Origin: Natrialba chahannaoensis JCM 10990 | GTDB taxonomy: Archaea; Halobacteriota; Halobacteria; Halobacteriales; Natrialbaceae | DNA length: 64,000 nucleotides | Reading direction: 5' to 3' | Assembly (NCBI RefSeq): GCF_000337135.1 | Contig: NZ_AOIN01000043.1 | Location: 1 to 64,000, forward strand | Part shown: piece after piece, positions 50,879-57,042 of the stretch | How the letters are laid out: every line of letters starts with the position of its first letter | Numbering within the stretch: position 1 is the first letter of the stretch | Notes under the pieces: model-generated | Databases searched by the model: none | What the model was told of the DNA's origin: nothing | What the model saw: only the letters and a program-made list of their open reading frames with translations | Position numbers and translations under genes: made by a program

Positions 50879-51244
50879 ATGGGACTGATGAGTAAGATTC
50901 TCGGTGGCAACCAGTCGCGGACTGCCGAGGACTACGTCGAACTGGACCTCGACGACGTCTCGGCGAGTTCGGCCGACGCGGCGGCGATGCAGGTACATAT
51001 CGCGGAAGTCGGCAGCCAGGCGGATGCAATCGATATCAAGGACGCCGTCTACGACGGCGACATCGTTATCGCGGACATCACTCGACTGCGAACCGAGGAC
51101 AGCACCGTTGAACACATCGTTGACGAACTGCGCCAGGTCGCCCAGGAGGTCGACGGCGACATCGTCCGCAAGGGCGAGGATCAGATGATCATCACGCCGA
51201 CTGGTGTCCACATCAGTCGGGAGAAACTCGGGCAGCAGTTGTAG
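50879..51244 (+). CDS. sepF: SepF-like cell division protein
   Basis: The 121-residue protein begins MGLMSKILGGNQSRTAEDYV, an amphipathic membrane-targeting helix, then has AMQVHIAEVGSQADAIDIKD and TVEHIVDELRQVAQEVDGDI, the SepF core. Archaeal SepF anchors FtsZ to the membrane and is essential for division in haloarchaea. The ATG at 50879 follows a CGGCA leader. A copy of the 86-base hairpin element starts 100 bases downstream. Confidence 0.9.
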   Translation: MGLMSKILGGNQSRTAEDYVELDLDDVSASSADAAAMQVHIAEVGSQADAIDIKDAVYDGDIVIADITRLRTEDSTVEHIVDELRQVAQEVDGDIVRKGEDQMIITPTGVHISREKLGQQL

Positions 51245-51344: not shown

Positions 51345-51430
51345 CTATAGTACCAACTGCAACTAGTTACACACTGATCGCACAGTTGCCGTACGATCAG
51401 GTGTGCAGTGACTTGCAGTGGCTACTATAG
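51345..51430. mobile_element. Hairpin repeat element, short copy (86 bp)
   Basis: Bounded by CTATAGTA on the left and TACTATAG on the right, with about 39-base imperfect inverted arms ending in TGATCGCAC and its complement. The outer 36-39 bases match the copy at 56759-56884 almost perfectly, but the centre is only about 9 bases. No coding capacity, so it would need a helper enzyme to move, if it is mobile at all. Confidence 0.75.
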
Positions 51431-51553
51431 TTATACTGTCTACTCGCCGACATATCGGGACATACTGTCTATGAACTGTGTGTTAGAACTGTCCACCGAA
51501 ACGAGACGGTGAATTCGTCTGTCGAAGTAATATACCGCACCCGTTGGCCGAAA

Positions 51554-51673
51554 TCACACGACGAACGTGAGGACGAACGCGCCGACCATCACGATACCGA
51601 GCCAGAGGGCGAAGATAATTGCTGCGTGCGATCCAGTTAATGCCTCTCCATCGAGGAATTCACTGACTTCCAT
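51554..51673 (-). CDS. 39-residue membrane microprotein
   Basis: The frame starts MEVSEFLDGEALTGSHAAII at ATG 51673 and ends in a hydrophobic run, FALWLGIVMVGAFVLTFVV, with a clean TGA. A short acidic head plus one membrane helix is a common pattern for haloarchaeal microproteins. The composition is typical of the genome and the length exact. No function can be assigned. It lies between the short hairpin element and a glyoxalase-fold gene. Confidence 0.6.
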   Translation of the reverse strand: MEVSEFLDGEALTGSHAAIIFALWLGIVMVGAFVLTFVV

Positions 51674-51898
51674 TGGTCGGGTATCAGGTGGCTACTCTCG
51701 TAAGCCGCAGGCTGATTCCCTTGCTGTGGGAACGTCCGACACAATCCTAAATGACCGAACAGGTTTGAACGTGTGGCTCGCATCGATACTGTCTTCGAGA
51801 AACGGGCCGCAGGAATTGCTGTCTCGATACATCGACACGCTCGCGGCAGTCTTCGCTCACGCCGGAATTGACTTACAACAGTTCGTCTCACAAGAGGT

Positions 51899-52276
51899 AT
51901 GGATGTCATTCACACGGCACTCTGGGTATCGAACCTCGAGCAGACACGGTCCTTTTACGTCGACGCGCTGGGGCTGACGGAAAATTGGTCGTTCGAAACG
52001 GACGACGGCGTCGAAAACGTCTACATAGGGGGTGAAAACGCGGAGTTCCAGTTCAAGCACGATCCTGCTGGCGGCCCTGAAATCGATTCCGGAACGATGG
52101 CTCACGTCGCCGTCGGCGTTGAGCGTACCGATGATGTTTTCGACCGACTGATTGCCCAGGTCGATCCACCCGTCGAGATGGAACCGACGACGATGGCAGA
52201 GATTGGCTGTCGAGTTGCGTTCGTTGAAGATCCTGACGGCTACGTCGTCGAACTTGTCGAACGGATAGACACCTGA
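51899..52276 (+). CDS. VOC/glyoxalase superfamily protein
   Basis: The 125-residue protein starts MDVIHTALWVSNLEQTRSFY, with the first-repeat histidine, then has ENVYIGGENAEFQFKHDPAG and AHVAVGVERTDDVFDRL, and ends FVEDPDGYVVELVERID. These are the two-repeat metal-binding pattern of VOC proteins (glyoxalase I, bleomycin resistance, dioxygenases). Histidine and two glutamates are in place. The substrate is unknown; methylglyoxal removal is one option. It is a single gene with the citrate synthase gene 120 bases downstream. Confidence 0.88.
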   Translation: MDVIHTALWVSNLEQTRSFYVDALGLTENWSFETDDGVENVYIGGENAEFQFKHDPAGGPEIDSGTMAHVAVGVERTDDVFDRLIAQVDPPVEMEPTTMAEIGCRVAFVEDPDGYVVELVERIDT

Positions 52277-52397
52277 TCATGCTTTATGAGTTGGAACCGA
52301 CTGCGGAAATCTGTGACCAGGAAGCGCCTCGCGTCTGTTGACAGATTACGGCGAGAAAACGACAATACTTTTCCATCGGCGACTGAAATTCCACGGT

Positions 52398-53546
52398 ATG
52401 GCAGACGACCTTAAAAAAGGGCTTGAGGGCGTCCTGGTCGCAGAGTCAGACCTCAGCTCGATCGATGGTGACGCGGGACGGTTGATCTACCGTGGCTACG
52501 CGATCGAGGACCTCGCCCGTGGCGCAAGCTACGAAGAAGTCCTCTACCTCCTCTGGAACGGCCACCTCCCCTCCGAGGACGAGCTCGCGTCGTTTACCGA
52601 GGCGCTTACCGAGGAACGCACCGTCAGCGACGACGTGCTCGCAACGATGGAGCGTCTCGCCGACGCCGGCGAGCGGCCTATGGCTGCCCTCCGGACCGCT
52701 GTCTCGATGTTTTCGGCAACCGAACCCGAAACCGACGCTGATCCCGAAAACCTGGATGCGACGCTTCGCAAGGGTCGGCGAATCACCGCCAAGATTCCGA
52801 CCGCGCTCGCCGCTTTCGAACGCTACCGACTCGGCGAGGAGCCGGTCGATCCCGACCCCAATCTGGGACTCGCCGCGAACTTCCTCTACATGCTCACCGG
52901 CGAGCAACCCGACGACATCGCTGCCGAAACCTTCGACCAGGCGCTCATCCTCCACGCCGACCACGGCCTGAACGCCTCTACGTTCACCTCGATGGTCATC
53001 GGCTCTACGATGGCAGACATCTACAGCGCCGTCACTGGCGGCATCAGCGCGCTCTCCGGCCCGCTCCACGGCGGTGCCAATCAGGACGTCATGGAAGTCC
53101 TGATCGAAATCGACGAGAGCGATCTCGACCACCGCGAGTGGGTCGAACAGGCCACCGACGAAGGCCGACGCATCCCCGGCTTCGGCCACCGCGTCTACAA
53201 CGTCAAAGATCCCCGCGCGAAGATCCTCGAAGAACGGAGCAAGGAACTCGCCGCAAACGGCGACGACAAGTGGTACAACTACACCACGACCATCGAGCAG
53301 TACCTCTCCGAGGAGAAGGGCTTAGTCGAGAAGGGCATCGCACCGAACGTCGACTTCTACTCCGGCTCGGTCTACTACCAGCTTGGCATCCCGATCGACA
53401 TGTACACCCCGATCTTCGCCATGAGTCGCACCGGCGGTTGGATCGCACACGTACTCGAGTACCAGGACGATAATCGCCTGATCCGACCGCGCGCCCGGTA
53501 TACGGGTCCGGAGGACCAGGAGTTCGTGCCGATCACGGAGCGGTAA
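52398..53546 (+). CDS. citZ: Citrate synthase
   Basis: The 382-residue protein begins MADDLKKGLEGVLVAESDLS and contains LHADHGLNASTFTSM, SGPLHGGANQDVMEVL and IPGFGHRVYNVKDPR, the histidine and aspartate centres of citrate synthase. It condenses acetyl-CoA and oxaloacetate at the entry to the TCA cycle. 2-Methylcitrate synthase shares these motifs, so the alternative cannot be fully excluded. The ATG at 52398 fits the family; the upstream in-frame start would add unrelated residues. T-rich sequence at 53570-53615 may terminate the transcript. Confidence 0.95.
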   Translation: MADDLKKGLEGVLVAESDLSSIDGDAGRLIYRGYAIEDLARGASYEEVLYLLWNGHLPSEDELASFTEALTEERTVSDDVLATMERLADAGERPMAALRTAVSMFSATEPETDADPENLDATLRKGRRITAKIPTALAAFERYRLGEEPVDPDPNLGLAANFLYMLTGEQPDDIAAETFDQALILHADHGLNASTFTSMVIGSTMADIYSAVTGGISALSGPLHGGANQDVMEVLIEIDESDLDHREWVEQATDEGRRIPGFGHRVYNVKDPRAKILEERSKELAANGDDKWYNYTTTIEQYLSEEKGLVEKGIAPNVDFYSGSVYYQLGIPIDMYTPIFAMSRTGGWIAHVLEYQDDNRLIRPRARYTGPEDQEFVPITER

Positions 53547-53699
53547 CGGTACGCCGTAGAGCGGTTCGTTTTCTTGTTCTGACCGTGCTCGTTTTGTCTT
53601 GTCTGATCGTGTTTGTCACCACCGTGATCGCTCGTCGCGGAGTCATCTCGAGCGCGTCGCAACCAAAAAGTAGCCGCCCCGAGATGGTTCGCCCGTCCT

Positions 53700-54335
53700 G
53701 TGTGTGCTCATGCCCTCACTTTCGTCTTCGTCTATGGAACGCTGACTGACCGCGAACAGGCCAGCGCCGTCCTCGGTACCGAGTGGCCAGATACCGAAAT
53801 CGTCGGCGACGCGGTCCTCGAGGGCTGTCGTCAGGTCGACGGCCAGTACCCGACGCTCGCGCCGGCTGGCTCGGCGACGGATGACTCGGTGATGGATAAC
53901 GCAGCAATGGAGGTCGAGACGACGGACGGCGAGACAACCGGTAGCGAAACGACAGCTGGCGAGACAACCGGAACACTACTCACCGTCACCGATTCGGGGC
54001 TCGAACGACTCGATCGGTACGAAGGCGTCGAGCATGGTCTCTACGTTCGCGTTCAGGTTCCGTGGCTCACGAGTATGGATGCGGATGCGGATGTGGACCC
54101 GGACGTGGCTGCGGATATGGACCTGGGGACAGGCGCGAACGCGGACGGCCGTCCGGTGGACGAGGACGGGCAGCCCCCGGTCTGGACCTACGTCGGCAAC
54201 CCCGATCGGCTCGGCACCGAGTCAGTACTCGAGTGGCCCCGAGCCCCAACCTTCGAGGACGGTGTTCGCGACTACATTGAGACACACGATGTCGGTGTTC
54301 GACTGGCGAAAGACAGCCGTCCGCCGGACGTCTGA
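53700..54335 (+). CDS. Gamma-glutamylcyclotransferase/AIG2-like protein with acidic insertions
   Basis: The 211-residue protein begins at a GTG (MCAHALTFVFVYGTLTDREQ) with the YGTL motif of the GGCT/AIG2 fold, and has LERLDRYEGVEHGLYVRVQV later. Two low-complexity stretches interrupt it: a Thr/Glu-rich one (TTDGETTGSETTAGETTG) and an Asp/Ala-rich one around DADADVDPDVAADMDLG. Members cleave gamma-glutamyl or related amide bonds. The insertions look like slippage-grown linkers and lie outside the core. No ATG start is available in frame. Confidence 0.75.
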   Translation: MCAHALTFVFVYGTLTDREQASAVLGTEWPDTEIVGDAVLEGCRQVDGQYPTLAPAGSATDDSVMDNAAMEVETTDGETTGSETTAGETTGTLLTVTDSGLERLDRYEGVEHGLYVRVQVPWLTSMDADADVDPDVAADMDLGTGANADGRPVDEDGQPPVWTYVGNPDRLGTESVLEWPRAPTFEDGVRDYIETHDVGVRLAKDSRPPDV

Positions 54336-54566
54336 CGCCGCTTCGATCCCGGTGCCTGCTTGCGATTTCACTTTCACTCTGGAGGGGTGGGTTTTATGGT
54401 GTCTGCGTGCCCGTCTATACTCGCACGTCACACGCCGTGCATTCCCTGTATCCCTGTCGTGTTGCCGCTGGCAGCACGTTCCTGTTCCTGTCGGGGTAGT
54501 GGGGGTGGGGTCCGCCCGCTCGATCGTCCCCGACAGTCTTACAATATATGACGAATAGGCACGCAT

Positions 54567-55778
54567 ATGATCGAACTCGCTGACGTTCTCGAAGCTCAGG
54601 ACCGGGTACGTGAAACATCCAGACACACCCCACTCGAATATTCACACACCTATTCGTCGATGACTGACGCCGATGTCCACTTCAAACTCGAGACCTTCCA
54701 GCGGACGGGGTCGTTCAAGATCCGCGGTGCGACGAACCGCGTCGCGACGCTCTCTGAAGCGGAAAAAGACGCAGGAGTCGTCACCGCAAGCGCGGGGAAC
54801 CACGCCCAGGGTGTCGCCCTCGCGGCCACGCGCTCCGGCGTCGACTCGACCATCGTCATGCCCGAACACGCGCCCATCTCGAAGGTCAAAGCGACCCGCA
54901 ACTACGGCGCGAAGGTCGTCCTCGACGGGACGGACTACAACGAGGCCGCCCAGCGCGCCCACGAACTCGAAGAGAAAGAAGACCGCACGTACGTCCACGC
55001 CTTCGACGACGAGTACGTGATGGCCGGTCAGGGAACGATCGGCCTCGAAATCCTTGAGGACTGCCCTGACGTCGACACCGTCGTCGTCCCCATCGGCGGC
55101 GGCGGCCTCATTAGCGGCGTTGCCGCGGCGATCAAGGAGAAACGACCCGAGACGCGCGTGATCGGTGTCCAGGCCGAGGGCGCATCGAGTGCGGCGACCT
55201 CACTCGAGAAGGGCGAGCGAATTTCGCTCGACGGCGTCGACACCATCGCGGACGGGATCGCGACGCGAAGCGTCGGCGAGAAGCCGTTCCGCCATATTGA
55301 GGAGCACGTTGACGAGGTCGTCACGGTCTCGGACTCCGAAATCGCGGTCGCGATCGTTTACCTGCTCGAGCGCTCGAAGACGTTGGTCGAGGGTGCTGGC
55401 GCGGTGCCACTTGCCGCACTCTTGTTCGAGCATTTCGAGTACGACGCGGGCGAGACCATCGTGCCGATTCTCTCGGGCGGCAACGTCGACCTCAACACGC
55501 TCACCAACATCATTGTCCGTGGCCTCGTCGAGACTGGCCGCTATCTGAAGATCAGAACCGTGCTCAAGGATCGACCGGGGGCACTCGAGAAACTGCTCGA
55601 GATTTTCACCGAGTATCAGGTCAACATCTACGCGATTTACCACGACCGCACCTCGCGCGAGGTCGAGATGAGCGATACGGAAGTCGAGATCGAACTCGAG
55701 ATGCGCGGCCCTGACCACGTCGATGCGTTTCTGGAGTCACTCCGAGAGGAGGGGTACGTGGTCGATATTCTGGCCTGA
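54567..55778 (+). CDS. ilvA: Threonine ammonia-lyase with C-terminal ACT domain
   Basis: The 403-residue PLP enzyme has QRTGSFKIRGATNR with the PLP lysine K51, SAGNHAQGVALAA, and the PLP-phosphate loop VVVPIGGGGLISGVAAAI. The last 75 residues or so, from LKIRTVLKDRPGALEKLLEI, form an ACT domain, so activity may respond to an amino acid. It converts threonine to 2-oxobutanoate through an enamine. RidA follows 91 bases downstream on the same strand, in line with its job of clearing the reactive enamine/imine. Confidence 0.94.
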   Translation: MIELADVLEAQDRVRETSRHTPLEYSHTYSSMTDADVHFKLETFQRTGSFKIRGATNRVATLSEAEKDAGVVTASAGNHAQGVALAATRSGVDSTIVMPEHAPISKVKATRNYGAKVVLDGTDYNEAAQRAHELEEKEDRTYVHAFDDEYVMAGQGTIGLEILEDCPDVDTVVVPIGGGGLISGVAAAIKEKRPETRVIGVQAEGASSAATSLEKGERISLDGVDTIADGIATRSVGEKPFRHIEEHVDEVVTVSDSEIAVAIVYLLERSKTLVEGAGAVPLAALLFEHFEYDAGETIVPILSGGNVDLNTLTNIIVRGLVETGRYLKIRTVLKDRPGALEKLLEIFTEYQVNIYAIYHDRTSREVEMSDTEVEIELEMRGPDHVDAFLESLREEGYVVDILA

Positions 55779-55868
55779 TCGGCCCGCGACGTACGCTCGT
55801 CTCTTTGCTTCTCGACAATCGATCGTGTTTCGCCTGCATTTAAGACCAATCGGGAAGCAGTAGCGGGT

Positions 55869-56249
55869 ATGAAGCGAATCATCGATACCGACGAGGCACC
55901 ATCCGCAGTCGGCGCGTACAGTCAGGCGGCAACCAACGACGACCTGCTGTTTACCGCCGGCCAGATTCCCCTGACGCCCGACGGCGATCTCCTCGACGAC
56001 GAACCGATCGACGTGCAGGCCGAGCAGTCCCTCGATAACCTCGTCGCCGTCCTCGACGAAGCTGGCGCGACTCCCGCAGACATCCTCAAGGTCACCGTCT
56101 TCCTCGACGACATCGAGGATTTCGACGCGATGAACGACACCTACGCCAGCTACTTCGACGACGAGCCGCCGGCCCGCAGTGCTATCGAGGTCGCCGCGCT
56201 CCCAAAGGGCGTCGGCATCGAGATCGAAGCGATCGCGTCACTCGAGTAA
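55869..56249 (+). CDS. ridA: RidA family enamine/imine deaminase
   Basis: The 126-residue protein has SAVGAYSQAATNDDLLFTAG, then QIPLTPDGDL, and PARSAIEVAALPKGVGIEIE with the catalytic arginine R103. RidA hydrolyses the reactive 2-aminoacrylate and 2-aminocrotonate released by PLP enzymes such as threonine ammonia-lyase. Its location right after ilvA supports that role. It is full length and the start is unambiguous. Confidence 0.95.
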   Translation: MKRIIDTDEAPSAVGAYSQAATNDDLLFTAGQIPLTPDGDLLDDEPIDVQAEQSLDNLVAVLDEAGATPADILKVTVFLDDIEDFDAMNDTYASYFDDEPPARSAIEVAALPKGVGIEIEAIASLE

Positions 56250-56282
56250 TCGCCGTTTTGCACTCCACTGAGTGAACGACGA

Positions 56283-56510
56283 ATGAACCCACGGACAAAA
56301 TCTGCCCTGTTGTGGGGCGCAGTCGGCTTCATGGCGTTTCTGGTCCTCGTCCAGGGCTACGCGCTGGTCGTCGAGCCGCTGGTCTCGATCGGACAGGGAT
56401 TCGTCGTCGCAGTCCTCGTCGGTGTGGGGACTGCTGTGAGCGCGTACGTACTCGAGTACCGGGTGGCGGCCTGGTCGGCGAAGCGGGCGGCGGAGCGGAC
56501 GCAGGACTGA
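56283..56510 (+). CDS. Small two-segment membrane protein (DUF7534-like)
   Basis: The 75-residue protein begins MNPRTKSALLWGAVGFMAFL and has two hydrophobic segments, about 9-28 and 38-58, followed by a basic tail (KRAAERTQD). It lies 33 bases after ridA and just before tRNA-Ser. I recall it as a conserved haloarchaeal membrane family, possibly DUF7534, of unknown role. Confidence 0.68.
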   Translation: MNPRTKSALLWGAVGFMAFLVLVQGYALVVEPLVSIGQGFVVAVLVGVGTAVSAYVLEYRVAAWSAKRAAERTQD

Positions 56511-56630
56511 TTTCGCACGTGGTCGGTCGATGCTGATGGGACACCGTTCATCGCACTGGACTGACGACGGCTGACACTGACGACGACTAAAAGTAAGAGT
56601 TAAACGAGGGACGTGGTTACGATAAGGTGA

Positions 56631-56711
56631 GCCAGGATGGCCGAACGGTAAGGCGCACGCCTGGAAAGCGTGTTCCCTTTGGGATTCTGGGTTCAAATCC
56701 CAGTCCTGGCG
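56631..56711 (+). tRNA. tRNA-Ser (anticodon GGA)
   Basis: A class II cloverleaf folds cleanly: acceptor GCCAGGA with TCCTGGC, anticodon stem CACGC with GCGTG around loop CTGGAAA (anticodon GGA, reading UCC/UCU), a long variable arm TTCCCTTTGGGATT, and T stem CTGGG with loop TTCAAAT. The discriminator is G, as expected for serine. CCA is not encoded. Confidence 0.97.
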
Positions 56712-57042
56712 TTTCTTGAATTTCACACGACGAACAATGTCCTCGAGAGGATCTGCTCCTATAGTACCAACTGCAACTAGTTACACACTGATCGCACGTT
56801 CGCGGTTCTCGCTCAGTTCACTCGCTCCGAACCGCGCTGCCGCCGTGCGATCAGGTGTGCAGTGACTTGCAGTGGCTACTATAGTGGGCCGACACACCTT
56901 GTCCGAGATGCGTCGAGTCTGCAGGCTCACGTATTGAGAGAATACGGTGAGTTCAGTCGATCCTACCTGTATGGGCTACCCTCGAGTAGCACCCGTATCC
57001 GTGGCTTGTAGACGGACACAGCCGACTGGAAGCGCAGCACTC
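56712..57042. other. Downstream of tRNA-Ser, mostly the long hairpin element
   Basis: Holds the 126-bp hairpin element (56759-56884). The rest (56885-57042) shows no gene. No integrase or duplicated tRNA 3' end marks an integration site. Confidence 0.5.
56759..56884. mobile_element. Hairpin repeat element, long copy (126 bp)
   Basis: Outer ends CTATAGTA and TACTATAG, with imperfect inverted arms of about 40 bases. Inside these, CGCGGTTC at 56801-56808 pairs with GAACCGCG at 56829-56836, so almost the whole element can fold into one long hairpin. It starts 47 bases after tRNA-Ser. The outer arms are nearly identical to the 86-bp copy at 51345-51430. Confidence 0.8.

Follow-up and report, generated by a model that had tools for sequence, protein, structure and literature searches.

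Both hairpin sequences found in the window, by which we mean the whole 64,000-nucleotide stretch of Natrialba chahannaoensis DNA analysed here, are very probably copies of a non-coding MITE of the IS630/Tc1 type, with an IS630 transposase acting in trans as the likely agent of its movement. Established for the family are its many dispersed copies, insertion at TA (preferably within CTAG) with duplication of the TA, long and slightly unequal terminal inverted repeats ending in TAGTA/TACTA, and empty sites in congeners. The small element is placed in the IS630/Tc1 type because a 1,059-bp group of haloarchaeal IS630 elements likewise ends in TAGTA, duplicates TA and prefers CTAG. It fits the definition of a MITE, from which PATEs, SMRs and REP units are set apart by target duplication, and we therefore regard it as an abundant new member of the MITEs, a widespread but ordinary sort of genomic parasite. 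In the open-access literature, to which this negative is limited, no paper describing the family was found.

Structure of the two window copies

The two copies lie where they were originally described, at 51345-51430 (86 bp) and 56759-56884 (126 bp), and the near identity of their outer arms held as well, with 39 identical bases on the left and 97.7% identity over 43 bases on the right. The limits had to be corrected: the C and G at the extreme ends are part of the target site, and next to them comes the duplicated TA. The small element itself therefore spans 51348-51427 (80 bp) and 56762-56881 (120 bp). In copy 1, the short form, the plus-strand core TAGTACCAAC...GGCTACTA consists of an A arm, the left terminal inverted repeat (51348-51383, plus strand), and a B arm, the right one (51391-51427, minus strand). 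It is flanked by TA at 51346-51347 and, as read in the sequence, at 51428-51429, within a CTAG target whose C is at 51345 and whose G is at 51430; that this TA is a duplication follows from the empty sites of other copies. Copy 2, the long form, likewise has its core on the plus strand, with the A arm at 56762-56797 (plus strand), the B arm at 56845-56881 (minus strand) and TA duplications at 56760-56761 and 56882-56883, both recognised from a single-TA empty site in the congener G004. The left arm common to both copies is 36 bases long and the right one 37 bases, the difference between the copies lying in the centre, where the long form carries the nested palindrome described originally CGCGGTTC...GAACCGCG (56801-56836), which recurs in the same place in other 120-bp copies. 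Furthermore, the arms are unequal, A reading TAGTAACAACTGMAAC... and B TAGTAGCCACTGMAAGTCA..., an asymmetry retained across genera; the end sequence of the small element is TAGTARCMACTGMAA, and it has no coding content.

The neighbours of the copies were also correctly named, as an ORF with a SepF domain (50879-51244; PF04472, E 6e-17) ends exactly 100 bases before copy 1 and tRNA-Ser(GGA) (56631-56711) ends 47 bases before copy 2. Elsewhere in this part of the window there are a citrate synthase (52338-53546), a PALP enzyme (54567-55778) and, downstream of copy 2, an ORF with an SRAP domain (PF02586; 57264-58202).

Family size, target sites and mobility

The proposed genome search for the ends was clear in its outcome. 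Allowing for at most one mismatch, the 17-base end pattern had 87 forward and 81 reverse matches in the 106 contigs (4.3 Mb) of the host genome, and the reversed control pattern had 0 and 0 in the same genome; copy 1 used as query gave at least 46 matches, with 40 of the 102 candidates scored. Scaffold joins double some of the matches, and we therefore put the copy number in this genome at about 70-85, a fair estimate. A family of only two copies, or sequence conserved in place across species, had been named as outcomes that would speak against the original prediction; neither was seen, given this copy number and the congeners, which lack the window copies and in which the spacer after sepF has diverged and contains no element. 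At E <= 1, 61 of 100 related genomes gave a match, weak matches included, the strong multi-copy matches coming mainly from the same family, most genomes of which have copies, together with two genomes from other families of the order. Copies are also present on plasmids of Natrialba magadii, Natrinema, Natronorubrum, Haloarcula hispanica, Halomicrobium and others, and both N. magadii records NC_013923 and NC_013924 contain them. The small element is thus a high-copy repeat of Natrialba, Natrinema, Natronorubrum, Haloarcula and other haloarchaea. Spread by viruses was considered and rejected, the 40 exact 17-base end matches among 2.9 million viral contigs being about what a rough estimate of chance predicts, and the phage genomes searched for the ends gave zero matches.

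Counted with both TAs, the lengths are discrete, namely 84 bp, 124 bp and a single 376-bp form with internal repeats. The last of these (L157 761-1136, G000:C78) has CCGCGGTTCTCACTCACTTCGTTCGCTC repeats in its centre and a single N inside, which makes its exact length uncertain. Copy 2 and the 124-bp copies at loci L167 and L168, which lie at three different sites, are identical. The small element disturbs short-read assemblies, which break at the hairpins and yield false tandem or 188-204-bp copies with single-N joins inside or beside them; the apparent tandems L004/L005, L013, L016, L160-L164, L166, L173, L177 and L179 were rejected as such scaffold joins with a repeated overlap. In L028 the tandem is genuine and a TA is shared between the copies, showing that copies insert into one another's terminal TA.

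Reading 135 sites, we found constant ends TATAGTA...TACTATA with a variable outer base. The oriented targets were CTAG at 80 sites, CTAC at 13 and CTAT at 11, followed by rarer ones; among the 1,394 TA dinucleotides of the window only 36 (2.6%) lie in CTAG. The flanking duplication that had been looked for is TA, as shown by empty sites in congeners. Copy 2 lies in ctgctcc-TA-[element]-TA-gtgggcc, to which ctgcttc-TA-atgggtc corresponds in G004, the empty site being CTAA and not CTAG; a second filled/empty pair was obtained between G001 and G004. Moreover, at least one gene has been broken by the small element: the copy at L012 (1502-1585; G000:C96:49338-49423) splits a gene that three congeners carry intact, and after removal of 82 bp (the element and one TA) the DNA matches the congener genes without gaps, with 98-99% identity over 80 aa. 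The scan of joined ORFs for interrupted genes returned mostly spurious frames in this GC-rich DNA, and L012 was its one confirmed case. Dispersal, the congener empty sites, the gene broken at L012 and the identical long copies all point to transposition of the family.

The probable IS630 partner

The search for a transposase with matching inverted ends led to IS630-type loci (PF13358) in the host genome, one element of which has identical TATAGTA/TACTATA ends. The haloarchaeal IS630 group in question is 1,059 bp long including both TAs and has two ORFs, of which orfA scores above the NCBIfam cut-off for IS630, and it is present in many of the genomes carrying the small element. In a wide sample of 80 IS630 loci with organism names, 59 were complete copies with TATAGTA/TACTATA ends, 36 of them at CTAG. 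At one locus in Natrialba magadii (L064, about 1388-2505; G003:C3) a 1,059-bp two-ORF IS630 has been inserted in the internal AACTAGTT (CTAG) of a small-element copy, and the junctions read AAC-TA-[IS]-TA-GTT; thus the IS630 itself duplicates TA and uses CTAG. The small element and this group have all five terminal bases in common, duplicate TA alike and both prefer CTAG, and together these features argue strongly from sequence comparison for assigning the small element to the IS630 type.

The identity of the exact partner transposase is uncertain. The small element and the IS630 elements match in TAGTA, TA and CTAG, and further inward the match is partial: compared with window DNA as background, the B arm has 13 of 22 positions in common with the 3' consensus of the IS (P about 5e-4), while for the A arm and the 5' consensus the figure is 12 of 22 (P about 0.002). 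It is possible, with a chance we would put well short of even, that the small element is a MITE that belongs with some other TA-duplicating transposon, now lost or so far undetected, from a further IS630 group or from an unrelated family, and that it has only its terminal bases in common with the 1,059-bp group. The modest likeness of the inner ends would suit such a partner, as would a different IS630 group whose score against a variant A arm is just as high (13 of 22) but which lacks the TAGTA end, and the 7 of 27 element-carrying genomes compared, some of them element-rich, in which DDE_3 had no match at E <= 1e-5. It sits less easily with the match of the 1,059-bp group in all five terminal bases, TA duplication and CTAG preference, and with one Natrinema gari IS630 end that shares 16 of 22 positions with the B arm. 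No autonomous element or IS630 with CTGMAA, the inner motif of the small element, turned up among the IS630 ends compared. Further haloarchaeal IS630-type groups (L093-L108), whose exact boundaries were read from paired copies, have other ends (TACTCACGGA, TAGTGTCTAG, TAGTACCGTT, TAGTGCGGCT and TAATGA).

With the 1,059-bp group as the source, mobilisation could proceed as follows. The two-ORF IS630 transposase would be supplied in trans, recognise the arms and cut at TAGTA, and the small element would be joined to a new CTAG. The long form may owe its origin to the gain of a short palindrome in the loop, and may then have spread independently as a second length class.

The hairpin and comparison with known elements

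Measured against dinucleotide shuffles, the folding energies are lower by 5.0 to 7.6 sd, and either strand gives a very stable RNA fold, in agreement with the RNA hairpin suggested originally; the suggested terminator received no support, as no such site at either copy, no enrichment in convergent spacers and many copies in divergent spacers were found. In an intrinsic terminator the hairpin stands at a gene end and a T-run comes after it. That the hairpin is a transcript terminator or an RNA element for stabilisation or processing, selected downstream of genes such as sepF and tRNA-Ser, appears very improbable: while the stable fold on either strand, the covariation of the arms described below and the location of both window copies downstream of a gene are what it would lead one to expect, the position is not conserved among congeners, the scan of both window copies detected no terminator-like site and the Rfam search of the hairpins gave no match. 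In addition, placement is mostly intergenic and convergent spacers are not preferred according to our home-made coding model and gene calls, by which the host's own copies lie in 23 codirectional, 14 divergent and 11 convergent spacers, compared with 35, 12 and 13 such spacers in the window. Fold, Rfam, terminator scan and gene context thus gave a terminator or regulatory RNA no support beyond stability, and there is no evidence of a host function for the small element.

In 98 distinct short copies the arms covary, deep inside the element too (C-G/A-T at 15-70, T-A/C-G at 31-55, G-C/A-T at 32-54 and A-T/C-G at 38-48), and double-change cells number 75 against a maximum of 37 in 1,000 shuffles, a comparison that ignores kinship among the copies. 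Because the arms change together more than in the shuffles, the hairpin itself may be maintained, and we tentatively raise, as a rather doubtful proposal, that the whole of it, beyond the terminal repeats, could be under selection or active correction. Selection, if true, would fit a hairpin or cruciform required for mobility, or an RNA function in the host; template-switch correction of quasi-palindromes can create the same covariation of arms.

The resemblance to REP/BIME units, also proposed at the outset, fails, since the small element duplicates its target and has long inverted repeats at its ends. REP/BIME units, which are associated with RAYT, have no target duplication and their partner is a Y1 transposase. 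PATEs of Haloquadratum have IS605-derived ends and neither terminal inverted repeats nor target duplication, and SMRs lack target duplication and have ends unlike any transposon (PMC3119063). Spread as a REP/BIME by a RAYT (IS200-like) transposase, or as IS605-derived PATEs or SMRs, would account for short, palindromic, mostly extragenic sequences in many copies, but the TA duplication with its empty sites and the long terminal inverted repeats leave this a negligible chance; REP/BIME and PATE were excluded on both of these features, and SMR on the TA duplication and the ends matching IS630. The MITE reading agrees with what was found, namely short non-coding units (cores of 80 and 120 bp) with terminal inverted repeats of 36-37 bases, multiple dispersed copies, target duplication and empty sites. 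The IS630/Tc1 type agrees with the TA duplication, seen in the empty sites and in the IS630 inside an element with TA duplicated, and with TAGTA at both ends of the small element and of the IS630. The MITE-like unit originally suspected can thus be specified as one of the IS630/Tc1 type with TA duplication and CTAG preference, and the original interpretation as a whole was partly supported.

Among haloarchaea, the MITEs, PATEs and SMRs of Haloquadratum walsbyi are likewise free of transposase and more numerous than transposons, and what the MITEs have in common with their transposon is limited to a few terminal bases (PMC3119063); they differ in that the main text of that paper makes no mention of IS630 and that PATEs and SMRs lack target duplication. 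An archaeal IS630-type MITE of similar length, by its description, is that of Methanosarcina mazei, with 89 bp and the partner ISMma9 (PMC3852290), but it has 5 copies in one methanogen, whereas the small element has about 70-85 copies and is found in many haloarchaeal genera. Closest in behaviour are the RUP and Correia elements. RUP of pneumococcus is non-coding, about 100 bp long, present in about 100 intergenic copies, targeted to TA and thought to be moved by the IS630-Spn1 transposase (PMC2229807), and it resembles the small element in size, copy number, lack of coding content, TA target and the link to IS630; the host domain and sequence are different, the ends of RUP are closer to those of its IS, and the small element is one hairpin throughout and prefers CTAG. 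Correia/NEMIS elements of Neisseria have TA termini, target duplication, long terminal inverted repeats, a stable RNA hairpin and two length classes of about 107 and 155 bp set apart by an internal insert, and promoter, IHF and RNase III roles have been reported for them (PMC2229807). Although unrelated in sequence, they share with the small element the TA ends, duplication, long repeats, hairpin and two length classes with an insert. The small element might thus serve as an archaeal counterpart to RUP and Correia elements and as a system for studying IS630 mobilisation and a possible role of the hairpin.
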